From contig NC_015589.1 in NCBI RefSeq assembly GCF_000215085.1, positions 2,926,120-2,990,119 on the forward strand: a stretch of DNA of 64,000 nucleotides. Direction: 5' to 3'. The notes beneath the pieces are model-generated. The model was given only the letters and a program-made list of their open reading frames with translations, was not told the DNA's origin and made no database searches. Made by a program: the position numbers and the translations under genes. The DNA comes from Desulforamulus ruminis DSM 2154 (GTDB lineage: Bacteria; Bacillota; Desulfotomaculia; Desulfotomaculales; Desulfotomaculaceae). Position 1 is the first letter of the stretch. Each line of letters starts with the position of its first letter. Below, in pieces: positions 739 through 6,185 of this stretch.

Positions 739-1158
739 ATGGATATTAGTAATTCCTTAGGCTTTATCCTCAACAAGACCAACAGCAAGTTAAAAAATGA
801 ACTGCTGCAGCATTTTAAGCAATATGACGTTACTCCCGAGCAGTGGGGCATTTTAAACCGGCTCTGGGATCAGGAAGGTCTCTCACCCAAGGAATTATCC
901 GAGTTGAATTATAAGGATTTCCCCAACACCATCCGTATTCTGGAGAAACTTGAAAAAAAGGAACTGATTATTAAGAAAGAAAATCCTTTGGATAAAAGAT
1001 CCTCCTTGATTTTTTTAACGGATAAAGGACGCAGCCTGGAACACATATTGCCCCCCCTGGCCACTCAGATTTTAAAAAGAGCTTTAAAAGGAATTGATAA
1101 GGAAAAAGAACAGGAACTGAAGTTTTTATTAAATAAGATCTACAGTAATTTAGAATAA
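739..1158 (+). CDS. MarR family transcriptional regulator
   Basis: A 139-residue protein of normal MarR length. Residues ~30-95 form the winged helix (QWGILNRLWDQEGLSPKEL, then a recognition helix and wing ending in DKRSSLIFLTDKG, the classic MarR wing pattern). MarR proteins bind palindromic operators as dimers and usually repress themselves and a neighbour. The palindrome in its promoter and the copy at 1181 before the membrane protein gene fit that scheme. The start at 739 follows a GGGAG-like site; the ATG at 735 is followed at once by a stop. The effector is unknown. Confidence 0.9.
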   Translation: MDISNSLGFILNKTNSKLKNELLQHFKQYDVTPEQWGILNRLWDQEGLSPKELSELNYKDFPNTIRILEKLEKKELIIKKENPLDKRSSLIFLTDKGRSLEHILPPLATQILKRALKGIDKEKEQELKFLLNKIYSNLE

Positions 1159-1180
1159 CAAATTTTTTTGCTTAATTAGC

Positions 1181-1190
1181 TGTCATGACA
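1181..1190 (+). promoter_or_regulatory. Second palindromic operator (TGTCATGACA)
   Basis: A perfect 10-bp palindrome in the 63-base gap between the MarR gene and the DUF2269-like gene. It differs at one base from the site at 703-712, so both are likely bound by the same MarR protein. Confidence 0.55.
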
Positions 1191-1221
1191 AGTTCTATTC
1201 AATAAAGGGAGGCTACAGACC

Positions 1222-1773
1222 ATGAAAAAGTTAAGTTTAAAAGGGAAAAACACCCTCAAGGGCCTGCACCTCTTCTTCACCTGTATCTGGGTCGGCGGAG
1301 CCACTTCCCTGGTGCTGCTGAATTTCCTTTCCCACCCGGCTACCGGAGATGAAATTTACGCTACCAACGCAGCCATTAAACTCATTGATGACTTTGTTAT
1401 CATTCCCGGCGCCCTAGGAAGCCTGTTTACGGGATTGCTGCTCTGTTGGCTGACCCACTGGGGATTTTTTAAGTTTAACTGGATCAATGTAAAGTGGGTG
1501 GTGACCATTCTTCAGATCCTGTTCGGCACCTTCGTGCTGGGTCCCTGGGTTAACGGCATGGAAGCCCTGTCCGAGGTAAAACGTTTTTTCGTGCTGCAGG
1601 ACGCCACTTACCTCCACTACAAACAAATGAATCTTTACTTTGGCTTGCTTCAGACACTGGTCCTCATCCTGGTGGTATTTATATCCGTATTTAAACCCTG
1701 GGGCAAACGGGGAAAAGAAAGCGGCAAAAAAGCAGCCGTTGCAAATGAACAGCCCCTTATTTACAAGAAATAA
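1222..1773 (+). CDS. DUF2269-like integral membrane protein
   Basis: A 183-residue protein with four predicted membrane segments (about residues 13-33, 58-78, 88-108 and 138-158) and a basic C-terminal tail. The first helix carries GLHLFFTCIWVGGA, a histidine plus W-x-GG pattern seen in the DUF2269 group of small membrane proteins; the later LHYKQMN histidine is also typical. The biochemical role of that family is not established. The start follows AAGGGAGG with good spacing. It shares an operator with the upstream MarR gene, so it is probably the regulator's target. Confidence 0.75.
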   Translation: MKKLSLKGKNTLKGLHLFFTCIWVGGATSLVLLNFLSHPATGDEIYATNAAIKLIDDFVIIPGALGSLFTGLLLCWLTHWGFFKFNWINVKWVVTILQILFGTFVLGPWVNGMEALSEVKRFFVLQDATYLHYKQMNLYFGLLQTLVLILVVFISVFKPWGKRGKESGKKAAVANEQPLIYKK

Positions 1774-1777
1774 AAAA

Positions 1778-1863
1778 GAATAGAACACGGATTATACGGA
1801 TTTACGCGGATTTTAAAATATAAATCATTAATCCGTGCAATCCGAAAAATCCGTGTTCTATTC
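1778..1863. repeat. CGGATT-type inverted repeat, copy A
   Basis: The ends are perfect 16-bp inverted arms (GAATAGAACACGGATT at 1778-1793 and its complement at 1848-1863). Between them CGGATT recurs at regular short spacing on both strands, so the whole unit can fold into a long imperfect hairpin. Related copies lie at 16551-16652 and 49245-49320. Like them it sits between two convergent genes. About 65 bases on its right side are also similar to the right flank of copy B. Confidence 0.85.
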
Positions 1864-1940
1864 TAATTGACCGGTTGTTGTGTTATCTTCCTATTCTATA
1901 ACCGCTATTAAAAATTAGTTTTGCCATACTTCCTTTTTAT

Positions 1941-2807
1941 TTAAGCTCGTCCTCGTTTTAAAACAATAATCTTCCCGGGTCCCTGGTGCGCCTCCAGGGA
2001 ATGTTCCAATATATGTCCCACCACAATATCGCCGGTTCCCTTTAACAGCAGTTCCGCCCGTTCTACGGTAACGCCGGCCACCAGGCTGCCGGACCCGGAA
2101 ACCTCGGCCTGCATTTCCTTAAAGCTGCCGGTCGTCACCGCCACGTCGCCGGTTCCGGCAACATTCACCTTTAAAGTCTGCCGGACCTGTTCGACATAAA
2201 CCCTGCCGCTGCCCTGCATGTGAATCTCCGCAGCCCCCGCCTCCTGACAGTCCAGCCGCATGCTCCCCCGGATAACGGCCTGCAGGCGATCCAGCGGCAC
2301 GCCAATAATCCCCCGGCCCCGGCCTGTGCTATCCAGGGTAAGGGATACCGGCCGAGGAACCTTAATCAACAATCTTCCCTCAATGGGTTCATGGCCCGGG
2401 CTACCCCAATGCCCACTGCTGCTCTCACAGGTTAAAGGCAGATGGATGCTGAGGCAGCCTTGTCCTTCCACCGTCACCCGGATAGCCCCATGAAACCCTT
2501 CCGTACCCATAACCTCCAGCAGGGCATAGGGTTGGGAATGGAGTTGTATTTCAAAGAAAAGGTGATTGCCGGAAAAAATCATCTCCCGGCAGTCCTCGAT
2601 CTTATATTCCCTGTTTTTCATTTCACCGCCTAATTCTTTATAAAAAACAGGCCGGAATTTGATTTCCCCCGGTCCGCAGTTTTTTACGCTTTTTAACTTT
2701 AAATCGGCAGTACTGCCGTCCTCAAACCAGGCCCTGCTGCCGGCCACAATGCTGACTTCCTTTTGACTTAAAACCATTAAGTCCTGGTATTGATGAACCT
2801 GCCTCAA
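1941..2807 (-). CDS. Putative GIN-domain (DUF2807-like) surface/beta-helix protein
   Basis: The C-terminal ~130 residues carry repeated short strands with G-x-G turns (GSGRVYVEQV, GTGDVAV, GSGSLVAGV, GTGDIVVG), the pattern of the head GIN / DUF2807 beta-helix fold. I chose the TTG at 2807 because GGAGGG lies exactly seven bases upstream; the in-frame ATGs at 2825/2822 would have that site inside the coding region. From the TTG the product is 288 residues with no obvious signal peptide. It could be a cytosolic or peripheral structural protein; no enzyme motif is visible. Confidence 0.7.
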   Translation of the reverse strand: MRQVHQYQDLMVLSQKEVSIVAGSRAWFEDGSTADLKLKSVKNCGPGEIKFRPVFYKELGGEMKNREYKIEDCREMIFSGNHLFFEIQLHSQPYALLEVMGTEGFHGAIRVTVEGQGCLSIHLPLTCESSSGHWGSPGHEPIEGRLLIKVPRPVSLTLDSTGRGRGIIGVPLDRLQAVIRGSMRLDCQEAGAAEIHMQGSGRVYVEQVRQTLKVNVAGTGDVAVTTGSFKEMQAEVSGSGSLVAGVTVERAELLLKGTGDIVVGHILEHSLEAHQGPGKIIVLKRGRA

Positions 2808-3074
2808 TGTTCTTCCCTCCATCATCCATCCGTAAGCCGGATGCCGCCGCGCTTTAAAAGAAGTGATTTGTCACTAAAAACTGTCTGTGCGTAATTGAAT
2901 TTCTATGGGTTAATCGCGCTGAAGTAATTCAGCAAATACCTAAATTATATTATAAAACCTTAGATTTTTATGGGCATTTTAGGGTAAAAAAGAGGCATCT
3001 TAAGAAGGTAATAAAGGAAATATGTAGAAATAGTTGAAAAATTATTATTTAAAATTGGGGTGGTGAACGTGTTT

Positions 3075-3569
3075 ATGGATAAAGTGCCGTTAATGGTCCT
3101 CATTTTTTATTCCATACCGGAAAGTTTGCTGATATTTACTTTCGGATACGTCATTTTGGGGTACCCAATAAAAACGCGTCCAATTATCTTAGCCACCCTG
3201 ATTTCTGTGCCCGCTAGTTATTTTGCAAGGCTTTTGCCCTTCCCATTTGGTGTTCACTCTGTAATAGGTTTATTTGTAATTTTTATGTTATTTATACTTA
3301 TTTGTAAATTTCCTGCTATACAAGGTCTAATCGCTTCTCTCCTTAGTTTAAGTACCTTGATAGCATTAGATAATTCAATCTATTCTATAGTACAGATATT
3401 GCTTGGCACAACAATAAGGGAACTTTGGGCAATGAAACCAATAGTAAGAACGCTCTCTGGATATTCACATTTACTGGCTTTCGCCTTGATTACAATCTTT
3501 ATTTACAAGAAAAAACTATTTCTAGGAGGATTTCAGAATGGGGCTGAGAATAGAAACCAAGATTCTTGA
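3075..3569 (+). CDS. Polytopic membrane protein of the agr locus (possible detached sensor half)
   Basis: About 164 residues with roughly five hydrophobic helices and almost no soluble part. ATG 3075 is chosen because GGTGGTGA (3059-3066) is placed eight bases before it; GTG codons at 3060, 3063 and 3069 are alternatives. Its end overlaps the start of the histidine kinase by 32 bases in another frame, with the kinase GGAGG site inside it, so the two are translationally linked. Typical AgrC-type sensors carry six to seven helices plus a kinase in one chain. Here the kinase has only about two helices, so this protein may supply the rest of the membrane sensor (inference). Confidence 0.75.
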   Translation: MDKVPLMVLIFYSIPESLLIFTFGYVILGYPIKTRPIILATLISVPASYFARLLPFPFGVHSVIGLFVIFMLFILICKFPAIQGLIASLLSLSTLIALDNSIYSIVQILLGTTIRELWAMKPIVRTLSGYSHLLAFALITIFIYKKKLFLGGFQNGAENRNQDS

Positions 3570-4392
3570 AAGGATGACTATATTCGTATTTATGGTAACC
3601 CTTTTTATTTCAATTGGTTCTAAAACAATAATGTTTTATTATCCATATAACTTTGTTATTTATTTTATTTTGTTAATGGCTTTTTGTAATTTCATTTTTG
3701 CTGTTTTTGTTATTAAATGGTTATCTACCGTTAAATATTTAGGTATGAAACTTGACACGCAGAAACATAGTTTAAATTATATGGAAGAAGCCGTGAAAAT
3801 TATGCGCTCCGAACGGCACGAATACCTCAACCACCTGCAGACCATTATGGGCTTAATTTTAAGCGGCGACCATAAGGAAGCCATGACTTACCTCAAGGAT
3901 ATGGGCGCCGAGTGCCGCTTCAACAGTCAGGTACTGTCGGTCTCCAATCCATCTTTGAGGGTACTGCTGCAAAATAAGCGGCAGTCCGCCCTAATCAAGG
4001 GTATTGAATTAAAACTGACCATCCAAAGCGATTTAAAACAATTGAAGCTAACACCCACCGACACCACCACCATCTTTGGCAATCTGCTGGACAATGCCAT
4101 GGACTGCATCGTAAACGCCAAGGACAACAGCAGTAGAAAATTAATTCACCTTAAAGTGACCGAGGTGGCGGATGATTACGTCTTTACCATTGAAGATTCC
4201 GGGCCGCCCATTGAACCCCACATTCTGGCGGAAATTTTCAAAATAGGATTTTCCACTAAAGGTACAGGACGGGGATTTGGCTTGGCCCTGGTAGAAAGTA
4301 CCATTCAAAGATACCAGGGTACCATCCATTACGGTGTGAACGGTGCCAAAGGTTTTACCGTTACCTTTCCCCAGCAGGGGGTTGCGGCATGA
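3538..4392 (+). CDS. AgrC-like GHKL sensor histidine kinase with short membrane part
   Basis: A 284-residue kinase. Residues ~12-62 hold two membrane helices, then a coiled linker, then the SERHEYLNHLQ dimerisation box with probable phospho-His94, typical of AgrC/CitA-type kinases. The N box (GNLLDNAMDCIVNA, ~180), the EDSGPPI box and GRGFGLALVES (~255) form the ATP-binding domain. The start has GGAGG eight bases upstream. It overlaps agrB by four bases. By family knowledge it would sense the secreted cyclic peptide and phosphorylate the LytTR regulator at 5191. The sensor region is much shorter than in AgrC, see the preceding gene. Confidence 0.88.
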   Translation: MGLRIETKILERMTIFVFMVTLFISIGSKTIMFYYPYNFVIYFILLMAFCNFIFAVFVIKWLSTVKYLGMKLDTQKHSLNYMEEAVKIMRSERHEYLNHLQTIMGLILSGDHKEAMTYLKDMGAECRFNSQVLSVSNPSLRVLLQNKRQSALIKGIELKLTIQSDLKQLKLTPTDTTTIFGNLLDNAMDCIVNAKDNSSRKLIHLKVTEVADDYVFTIEDSGPPIEPHILAEIFKIGFSTKGTGRGFGLALVESTIQRYQGTIHYGVNGAKGFTVTFPQQGVAA

Positions 4393-4985
4393 TTCACGGC
4401 TGGTCCGTCCATCTTGCTCAATACCTGGGAACTGAACTGAACCTGGACCACCGGAAGGTAGCGGTGGTTGCCTACGGTCTGGAAGTGATTATTGGCGCTC
4501 TTATAAAATTAGCAGTGTTTGTCCTTGTTCCTTCCATCCTTGGCGTTTTTAAATTGTTTGCCTTTGCACTAATCAGTTCCGCCATTCTGAGGCTGCCTTC
4601 CGGCGGGGTACATAACAACGCCTATTACAAATGTTTACTCAGCACATTAACGTTTTTTTTAATCATTGCTTTTACAGCCAAGGGGCTGGCCGTTTATCCT
4701 TTACCTTTAAATGTCTTCGCCTTCCTGATACTGCTCTTGGCTTTTCTGGTCTTTATAAAATTAGCGCCGGTGGATAACCAAGAAAAGCCTATTAAAAGTG
4801 AAGCCCGCAGAAAGCGTTTGAAGTTTATCTCCTGTTCCCTCCTGGTGGGCTACGGCGTCATTTTTTTTCTCTGGAGCCCGGAGCAGGATATTATGCTGGC
4901 CTTCCTGCTGGCTGTACTCTTCCACACCTTTACCCTGACGAAAATGGGCCATGCTCTATTTAAGGCCATTGACAATTTAATTTAA
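4389..4985 (+). CDS. agrB: AgrB-like autoinducer-peptide processing protease
   Basis: A 198-residue membrane protein of standard AgrB size. The catalytic pair is visible in LPSGGVHNNAYYKC: His75 and Cys82, seven apart as in staphylococcal AgrB. Four to five hydrophobic helices follow. AgrB is a membrane cysteine protease that cuts the C-terminal tail from the AgrD precursor and closes the (thio)lactone ring. The gene overlaps the kinase gene (ATGA) and is followed after 21 bases by a small AgrD-like frame, which makes the assignment firm. Confidence 0.93.
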   Translation: MIHGWSVHLAQYLGTELNLDHRKVAVVAYGLEVIIGALIKLAVFVLVPSILGVFKLFAFALISSAILRLPSGGVHNNAYYKCLLSTLTFFLIIAFTAKGLAVYPLPLNVFAFLILLLAFLVFIKLAPVDNQEKPIKSEARRKRLKFISCSLLVGYGVIFFLWSPEQDIMLAFLLAVLFHTFTLTKMGHALFKAIDNLI

Positions 4986-5006
4986 TAAAAGAAAGGAGGG
5001 TATACC

Positions 5007-5129
5007 GTGAAACGATTTTTGTTAAACCTGTGTGTTTCCCTGGCGCTGGTAATTTCCTATATTGGCATTTATCCTACCAGTTGGTTTACTTCGTACCAAC
5101 CAGAAGTACCCGAAGAACTGCTTAGATAA
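5007..5129 (+). CDS. agrD: AgrD-like autoinducer precursor peptide (40 aa)
   Basis: GTG start at 5007 behind GAAAGGAGGG (4991-5000). The 40-residue product has the three AgrD parts: an amphipathic/hydrophobic leader (residues 1-22), a core (about 23-29, PTSWFTS) and an acidic tail PEVPEELLR that matches the EVPKEL recognition tail of staphylococcal AgrD. The only cysteine is residue 9, in the leader. Aligning the tails puts the AgrB cut before Tyr30 and a serine (Ser25) at the ring position, so the signal would be a serine lactone with ring SWFTS rather than a thiolactone (inference). Similar Ser-lactone signals are known from Staphylococcus intermedius. Confidence 0.85.
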   Translation: MKRFLLNLCVSLALVISYIGIYPTSWFTSYQPEVPEELLR

Positions 5130-5141
5130 CACTAGAACATT

Positions 5142-5168
5142 ATGGACAAGGAACACCTCCTTGTCCAT
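5142..5168. repeat. Perfect 10-bp stem hairpin between agrD and agrA
   Basis: ATGGACAAGG (5142-5151) pairs perfectly with CCTTGTCCAT (5159-5168) around a 7-base loop. No T-run follows, so it is not a standard terminator. It could protect the agrBD mRNA or lower agrA expression. Confidence 0.65.
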
Positions 5169-5190
5169 GATCCATCCAAGGGGGATTCAG

Positions 5191-5877
5191 GTGAGAGCAT
5201 TCATTGTTGAGGATAACCCTGTGCAGAGGAAATATCTAAAAACACTCCTTTTTGAACAAAATGTGCGGGTGGTGGGAGAGGCCGCCACCGGCGAGGATGC
5301 GGTCAGGCAGATTGCCCGGCTGCAGCCGGAAGTAGTGTTTTTGGATATTGCCCTGCCGGAGAGCAGCGGCATGGAGGTAGGGTGGAAAATTGACAGCAAC
5401 ATCCACAAAGTTTTTGTAACGGGACACCACCACCACGCTCTCAAAGCCTTTGAGCTGGGCTCCCTGGATTATCTGCTGAAGCCGGTAAGCCCGGAGCGGC
5501 TGGAAATCACTCTGAAGCGCCTGCGCAAAATTATTAAACAAACGCACCAAAAACTGATTCTAAATTTGAAAAGCTCTACCATTGCCCTGGATATTCAGCA
5601 AATTCTGTTTATTGAAAAAATGCCTATTTTAAAAAAGGTGACCTTCCACACCCTGGACGGGGAATGCTCTATTTCCGGCACCCTGAATGAATATGAAGCA
5701 CGGTTAAAAAATCTAGGTTTTGCCCGCACTCATAATAGCTTTATTGTCAATGTGAATAAAATAAAAAGGCTGCTTCCCAGCGGGGATAAATCCTACATCA
5801 TTAAATTACATCATACGGCCAAAGAAGTGCCCCTCAGCCGCAAATACGCCCCCATGCTCAAGCCCCTGCTTTACTAA
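5191..5877 (+). CDS. AgrA-like LytTR response regulator
   Basis: The frame is open from 5062, but GTG 5191 is preferred: AAGGGGGA lies six bases upstream and the product starts exactly at the receiver domain (MRAFIVEDN). That gives 228 residues. The receiver (1-120) has the acidic pair Glu7/Asp8, phospho-acceptor Asp52 (VVFLDIALP) and the LKPVS lysine. The LytTR DNA-binding domain (~130-228) shows FIEKMPILKKV and THNSFIVNVNKI. It is the expected output regulator of the agr system upstream. No agr-type promoter repeat was recognised nearby. Confidence 0.93.
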   Translation: MRAFIVEDNPVQRKYLKTLLFEQNVRVVGEAATGEDAVRQIARLQPEVVFLDIALPESSGMEVGWKIDSNIHKVFVTGHHHHALKAFELGSLDYLLKPVSPERLEITLKRLRKIIKQTHQKLILNLKSSTIALDIQQILFIEKMPILKKVTFHTLDGECSISGTLNEYEARLKNLGFARTHNSFIVNVNKIKRLLPSGDKSYIIKLHHTAKEVPLSRKYAPMLKPLLY

Positions 5878-5903: not shown

Positions 5904-6185
5904 TTAAAAATTAAGGTTGATGGTGGTCAGTTCCGCCATAAGGTTCTCAAGGGACCCTACAATTTCTGTGGTGGTCCCTTCTTTACTTTTTTCAATTAAA
6001 AGAACCTTTCTCTTTTTAATTTCCGCATAATAGCACACAGAACCTGTCCCCCTGCCCTTCAGTTCAACGATCATCATGCCCTGGTTGCGGTAGCCCAGGT
6101 TATAAACCTTTTGCAAAAAGGCCCGGGGGCAGTAGGGCTTGGGATCCTGACTTTTTATTTGAAAAAGCCTTTCAACGATGGTCAT
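5904..6185 (-). CDS. Hypothetical 93-residue protein
   Basis: A small cytosolic protein with two predicted strand-rich segments and no signal or membrane part. It is convergent with the agr response regulator. I recognise no family. No strong ribosome site is visible upstream of ATG 6185, but the frame is long for this A+T-rich stretch and its codon use looks like its neighbours. Confidence 0.5.
   Translation of the reverse strand: MTIVERLFQIKSQDPKPYCPRAFLQKVYNLGYRNQGMMIVELKGRGTGSVCYYAEIKKRKVLLIEKSKEGTTTEIVGSLENLMAELTTINLNF

Follow-up and report, generated by a model that had tools for sequence, protein, structure and literature searches.

An agr-type locus with a predicted two-chain receptor

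Can the receptor of an agr-type quorum-sensing system be divided between two genes? Textbook agr receptors are single chains. The question is raised by positions 3075-5877 of the window analysed here, a 64,000-nucleotide stretch of the Desulforamulus ruminis DSM 2154 genome (NC_015589.1, positions 2,926,120 to 2,990,119). Five genes follow one another in one direction: a free-standing membrane protein (SENS), a histidine kinase (KIN), AgrB, AgrD and a LytTR regulator, a tight order that an initial annotation of the sequence had proposed and that the coordinates (Table 1) and the Pfam and NCBIfam matches bear out. We consider it likely that this is an agr-type operon encoding its receptor as two separate chains, with SENS binding the peptide and packing against KIN. 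The observed basis of this reading is the gene order, the domains, the helix counts, the predicted topology, a fused counterpart and the recurrence of the arrangement with AgrB and AgrD; on these comparisons a two-chain AgrC-like receptor is well supported. The host, known as a non-pathogenic sulfate reducer of the sheep rumen at biosafety level 1 (accessible part of PMC3569383), has a complete genome in a single contig of 3,969,014 bases.

The components that define an agr system are present, namely an AgrB peptidase (PF04647, 137.7 bits versus a cut-off of 23), an AgrD propeptide (TIGR04223, 42 bits versus 19) and a LytTR response regulator (Response_reg and LytTR at 3.7e-19 and 6.8e-21). 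What is lacking is a kinase with its multi-helix sensor in one chain. The KIN chain has two membrane helices and the other five lie on a separate chain, counts that had been proposed from the sequence and that reappear in the AlphaFold2 models; the proposed 32-base gene overlap and the kinase's own GGAGG site are also in place. KIN matches SPOB_a (5.6e-11) and HATPase_c (2e-16), and in its model (predicted local distance difference test score, pLDDT, 76.1; predicted template modelling score, pTM, 0.57) the two N-terminal helices continue into the dimerisation helices. Against the staphylococcal AgrC equivalog NF046015 it scores 38.3 bits, below the curated cut-off of 500.

The host genome holds the fused counterpart itself. 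In its second agr locus the genes for AgrB, AgrD and a LytTR regulator come after one for a 453-residue protein (L023, 5724-7085); the first part of this protein is SENS-like, the remainder is kinase-like, and seven helices are predicted. The two AgrB genes of this genome (E<=1e-5) each adjoin a SENS copy. Including this one, 19 of the sampled clusters contain a fused protein, 18 of them elsewhere, with the parts in the same order as the split genes: a SENS domain, two helices and a Spo0B/GHKL-type kinase, differing from the window in forming a single chain, with a short additional linker. All 19 match the SENS profile in their N-terminal region, and a profile of 42 free kinases spans 17 of them after the linker, starting no later than position 12 and ending no earlier than position 252; the two exceptions are the shortened L130 and L120, where the match begins at position 91. 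Because the two profiles cover the fused proteins in turn, SENS plus kinase is, in these alignments, a fused protein cut between predicted helix 5 and helix 6. Free AgrC-type kinases have two predicted helices, or three in 7 of 42. The initial annotation gave AgrC six to seven sensor helices; six is the number in the accessible part of a 2023 review (PMC10482373), and seven is the prediction for the fused protein of this host.

We propose the following sequence of events. AgrB would cut and cyclise AgrD to a short ring peptide, probably a lactone, which the outer face of SENS may bind. SENS would pack against the two membrane helices of KIN, giving seven helices as in the fused version, and peptide binding would change the state of KIN, in a direction that we can only presume. 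KIN would then phosphorylate the LytTR regulator, which may act on target promoters. In staphylococci the outer loops of AgrC are regarded as the place where the peptide acts; a full structure of AgrC was still missing in 2023 (accessible part of PMC10482373). The staphylococcal operon shares AgrB, AgrD, a membrane histidine kinase and a LytTR regulator with the window, whereas the window has its receptor in two chains and the order SENS-kinase-AgrB-AgrD-regulator.

Table 1. Coordinates of the agr-type locus within the window.
Feature	Position	Strand	Remarks
SENS, free-standing membrane protein with five helices	3075..3569	+	164 amino acids from ATG 3075; GTG 3060 is a possible start
GGAGG, Shine-Dalgarno-like	3525..3529	+	within the SENS gene, 8 bases upstream of the kinase ATG
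SENS/kinase gene overlap	3538..3569	+	32 bases, different frames
KIN, histidine kinase	3538..4392	+	284 amino acids; SPOB_a (dimerisation and phospho-acceptor) and HATPase_c domains behind two N-terminal membrane helices (Pfam, NCBIfam, AlphaFold2)
AgrB-type peptide-processing membrane protease	4389..4985	+	198 amino acids; PF04647 3.6e-40
AgrD propeptide	5007..5129	+	40 amino acids; TIGR04223 7e-11, above cut-off
Response regulator, REC + LytTR	5191..5877	+	228 amino acids from GTG 5191, start picked by eye; Pfam

The SENS family

The AlphaFold2 model of SENS, made with six aligned sequences, has five long helices (residues 6-28, 34-53, 58-75, 81-110 and 122-145) at a mean pLDDT of 84.2 and a pTM of 0.79. 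The helix count of five is taken from this model; in a hydropathy scan of 160 SENS frames of 145-260 amino acids, 81 frames scored five helices and 60 scored four. By the positive-inside rule, SENS is predicted to have its N-terminus outside and its C-terminus inside. Lysine plus arginine, averaged in 39 members over stretches of differing length, number 2.2 around loop 1, 2.1 around loop 3 and 4.1 in the C-tail; they are scarcer around loop 2 (1.0), around loop 4 (0.7) and in the first five residues of the chain (0.5). With this topology the following helix of the fused protein would begin on the correct side of the membrane. The best-conserved residues form the signature P15 E16 ... R52 ... 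G59. H61, and most members have a proline near position 130, where the window protein has serine.

No match to the window SENS was found in Pfam and NCBIfam at E<=1, nor to any of the 39 members in Pfam at 0.01, by which count SENS is an unnamed family. Foldseek returned no match between the model and the PDB at E<=0.001; further structural comparison with the PDB gave a best Z of 4.8 (root-mean-square deviation 6.4 A over 122 residues), and this lack of a clear match does not imply a new fold. A search by sequence among solved structures yielded one match, an antiporter subunit, at E 0.24. A separate sensing gene of this kind would change the annotation of agr systems, and SENS offers candidate receptors for agrBD genes without an adjoining AgrC.

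Occurrence of the split arrangement in relatives

The SENS profile was searched in two surveys, whose counts include fused proteins. In the host's class, an 11-sequence profile (E<=1e-4) matched 92 of 113 genomes and 45 of 55 genera; one genome off the match list is presumably G110. Across the phylum, a 39-sequence profile (E<=1e-5) matched 156 of 398 genomes and 115 of 266 genera. A narrower profile scan of named genomes gave five named loci, for example in Desulforadius tongensis DSM 29799 (L197), and a single SENS protein scanned against the collection of named genomes gave no match. A weak SENS match in the host genome (E 0.129, L003/L024) was discarded as a chance match.

For gene content we annotated, with profiles built in this analysis, 154 clusters in 150 loci: 100 of the class (the best-scoring matches), 40 from outside it, hand-chosen for free-standing frames and spread over families, and ten first-look loci (L024 dropped). 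Split-to-fused ratios in this sample are not population estimates. SENS stands directly before a Spo0B/GHKL-type kinase, as in the window, in 43 clusters, of which 35 have AgrB and AgrD and 20 of those 35 a LytTR regulator. Nineteen of the 43 pairs overlap, 41 overlap or lie within 25 bases, and all three frame relations occur; seven clusters have no kinase frame of at least 260 amino acids, two being cut by contig ends and the others short or broken. Kinase and SENS are both present and not adjacent in six more clusters, with the orders SENS-regulator-kinase (L075, L095) and SENS-SENS-AgrB-AgrD-kinase-regulator (L081, L087, L088, L089). The remainder comprises the 19 fused clusters, 77 with another kind of output, four with AgrB/AgrD and no labelled output, and five solitary SENS. 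Among the four, three end 52 bases or less from a contig end and the fourth is L162. The same gene order and fused versions, for which a search of related genomes had been suggested, are thus both found.

Several loci are of note in their own right. More than one SENS frame occurs in 28 of the 154 clusters, some of the frames being fragments. In two genomes of the window's genus, tandem SENS arrays, with some copies truncated, surround one agrBD pair (L018, 1-2849; L021, 3737-6719). L020 (3494-4809) has the window's gene order with SENS and kinase in pieces, a decaying copy. Beside the SENS-agrBD genes of L162 lies an 811-residue hybrid-kinase-like protein (1141-3576) that by eye combines a membrane part, a histidine-kinase core and a receiver; the profile matched the receiver only.

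Other output proteins beside SENS

Another kind of output protein accompanies SENS in 77 clusters; AgrB and AgrD are present as well in 68 of these. By motif, 48 have HisKA kinases, 21 GGDEF/HD-GYP proteins, five both, and three are unclear; the kinase label used for these outputs also took in GGDEF-HD-GYP proteins sharing the membrane part and two long open reading frames (L087, L089) without the HisKA motif. Pfam, run on 72 of the 88 frames, found HisKA in 46, GGDEF in 25 and HD_5 in 25. The initial annotation had placed SENS with AgrC kinases. That part holds in the 43, 6 and 19 AgrC-type clusters, and SENS orthologues also occur away from any agr kinase, in the 77 clusters and in a few solitary copies. 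The initial annotation had named such an occurrence as refuting; it applies in part, and its effect is to widen the claim.

The HisKA motif was readable in 55 frames, 43 of which have a T.GFQ[L/M/I/F] specificity set and 31 TTGFQL. The mapping of the six specificity positions is our own, checked only against the form of published sets, and the table of specificity residues and gene content, like the SENS tree below, uses earlier cluster labels (L090, the first L094 cluster, L129, L132, L176 and L190 differ from the final classes). According to the accessible part of PMC6136694, TTGFQL is the set of D. acetoxidans Dtox_3426 and Dtox_1918 and TTGFQF that of Dtox_3081, and Dtox_1918 has been shown to phosphorylate Spo0F. 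The D. acetoxidans genome (G043) has two SENS-AgrB-AgrD-HisKA kinase loci, L208 (3831-6801) and L209 (4133-7106), with the sets TTGFQL and TTGFQF. From the residues and the approximate positions we infer that these two kinases are Dtox_3426 and Dtox_3081, candidate sporulation kinases. The kinase tested in that study was Dtox_1918, and the term 'AgrB' is absent from the main text of the paper.

A second group of outputs points to cyclic di-GMP. The agrB-agrD genes and SENS directly adjoin GGDEF-HD-GYP membrane proteins in L131, L136, L141, L142, L149, L151, L153 and L157; further such neighbours are found in L164, L166, L168, L172, L173, L178, L195, L196 and others. This arrangement suggests a peptide signal acting on cyclic di-GMP. 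Because agrBD genes adjoin both HisKA kinases with Spo0F-type residues and GGDEF-HD-GYP proteins, a direct route from peptide to sporulation or to cyclic di-GMP becomes testable.

Within the wider family, the same kind of SENS subunit may serve these other outputs. The presence of a detached sensing half beside several kinds of signalling protein in many relatives suggests a plug-in sensor. We therein advance a broader proposal, tentatively and with slightly less than an even chance of being right: SENS would be a separable receptor module for AgrD-type ring peptides, found across the phylum and cooperating in trans with three or more kinds of output; one-chain forms of this family would have arisen by fusion from an older pair of genes, and tandem copies would allow a single cell to read several peptides. 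The putative outputs would be Spo0B/GHKL-type kinases paired with LytTR regulators, HisKA kinases directed at Spo0F and so at sporulation, and, for cyclic di-GMP, GGDEF-HD-GYP proteins.

The AgrD ring follows the receptor type

Beside AgrC-type or fused receptors the ring residue of AgrD is Ser in 42 cases and Cys in 10 (one Lys and one Met stand outside the test), and beside other outputs it is Ser in two and Cys in 71, with one unreadable (Fisher p 3e-21, not corrected for kinship). By comparison with other AgrD sequences, the window AgrD has Ser at this position, like the lactone of S. intermedius (accessible part of PMC10482373). Its ring is predicted to be the lactone S25-W-F-T-S29, preceding YQPEVPEELLR. 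Since Ser replaces Cys here and the ring residue follows the receptor type, the peptide of the window is probably a lactone.

Sensor, modulator or processing protein

A two-chain receptor has to be weighed against other roles for SENS. The strongest points in favour of reception are the SENS-kinase fusion and the clusters that have SENS and an output with no AgrB/AgrD (L055, L068, L069 and L183, and also the second L094 cluster, which lies beside a divergent agr cluster). Several observations weigh on the other side, of which two are strongest. First, SENS distances track AgrB slightly better than the kinase (Spearman 0.71 versus 0.65, 33 loci), so that co-evolution does not single out the kinase as the partner of SENS. 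Second, most other outputs have their own membrane helices: a hydropathy scan of 85 labelled frames gave four to seven in 78, two in five and none in two. In those clusters SENS may therefore modulate and not bind. In addition, SENS is solitary within kilobases of surrounding sequence in L073, L090 and L113 (the solitary clusters L077 and L098 end at contig ends), and its presence does not fully coincide with that of AgrB. The sequence comparisons also give no convincing link between SENS and a classical AgrC sensor. In a single hhalign comparison, the SENS family and the N-terminus of another AgrC-like kinase of the host genome gave a probability of 5% and E 0.0075, and the staphylococcal AgrC model aligns to the host's fused protein only from model position 135. 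In the fused protein L088, whose SENS domain spans 61-210, the NF046015 alignment begins within that domain, at residue 141.

The helices of the other outputs are also an argument for the alternative that survives best, in which SENS is an auxiliary regulator modulating a kinase that senses the peptide with its own membrane helices. A precedent would be KbaA, which, like KapB, acts upstream of KinB in Bacillus subtilis (accessible part of PMC6011975). KinB and KbaA share with the window a kinase acting with a separate membrane protein, whereas no AgrB or AgrD is mentioned in the accessible part of that source and no Pfam family matched the 39 SENS proteins. We regard such a role as unlikely: the kinase of AgrC-type loci has two predicted helices (three in 7 of 42), and 19 clusters have SENS and kinase joined in one reading frame.

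Slightly less likely again is that SENS takes part in peptide production (AgrD processing, export or self-protection) and not in reception. Besides the distance correlations, two features speak for production: SENS lies immediately upstream of and overlaps AgrB in many other-output loci, and the two co-occur tightly. In the class, 90 of 113 genomes have both SENS and AgrB, two SENS only, three AgrB only and 18 neither (108 concordant; Fisher p 7e-16); in the phylum sample, 144 of 398 have both, 12 SENS only, 20 AgrB only and 222 neither (366 concordant; p 5e-70), with both p values inflated by shared ancestry. The 12 and 20 discordant genomes of the phylum are among the points against reception, but the 20 with AgrB and no SENS also tell against a role in production, as do the fusions to a kinase and the four loci with SENS and an output but no AgrB/AgrD. 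Only one of 190 SENS-bearing frames also matches AgrB; in this frame (L140, 106-1686), which lies at a contig end, SENS is followed by a shortened kinase and then by AgrB. One genome, G459, has six AgrB genes with no SENS match, and presumably another receptor.

A sequencing error, or decay of an AgrC gene into a pseudogene, might be suspected behind the split from broken copies elsewhere (L020, L147, L158 and the second L194 cluster) and from the overlap of SENS and KIN in different frames: the KIN frame is open only from base 3526, and in the window alone one indel could join the two. This reading is very improbable. The genome is complete and in a single contig, and GGAGG stands ahead of the kinase. 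The relatives rule it out: the arrangement recurs in 42 further clusters (a kinase frame of at least 260 amino acids is present in 35), their variation in gap and frame excludes sequencing error as a general cause, and in six clusters other genes separate SENS and kinase.

Part for part, then, SENS plus kinase correspond to the fused AgrC-like kinase in a recurrent order, and the claim of a two-chain AgrC variant stands in this respect; what does not stand is a confinement of SENS to AgrC-type kinases. A literature search at abstract level, with subscription journals mostly outside its reach, found no description of a split or two-chain AgrC or of a free-standing AgrC sensor. Within the literature searched, the two-chain agr receptor may be an undescribed variant, and a prior description is possible.

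Origin of the split and fused forms

Two trees were built by quick searches under a simple model, both with long-branch warnings: an unrooted SENS tree of 179 domains from 190 frames (short ones dropped) and a kinase tree of 63 rows with one outgroup. In the SENS tree, the 70 rows that come from AgrC-type or fused loci all fall on one starred branch of 77 rows, together with seven others; SENS subfamily, as read from this tree, follows output type. With support 98, the window's SENS falls together with L073 and nine type I rows. Fused rows nest among split rows and need three parsimony changes, of which the starred branches alone force one; the starred branches of the kinase tree force three changes between split and fused. 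Free-standing SENS is also commoner than fused in the sample. The trees fit an order of two genes first and fusions later and do not favour a broken AgrC, although, with no root for the SENS tree and a long-branch outgroup in the kinase tree, the direction is not proven.

Further observations in the host genome

An AgrC-model match at 2929351 was set aside, as it runs through stops upstream of the kinase. LytTR-site repeats were sought upstream of the operon, with nothing convincing, and a scan for promoters and terminators was uninformative. Elsewhere in the host genome, L203 (1405-3479) holds a further AgrC/LytS-like kinase beside a gene that by eye is regulator-like, with no AgrB nearby and no SENS match. 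Just downstream of the operon, at 5904-6185 on the minus strand, a 93-residue protein without a Pfam match is encoded convergently with the regulator gene.

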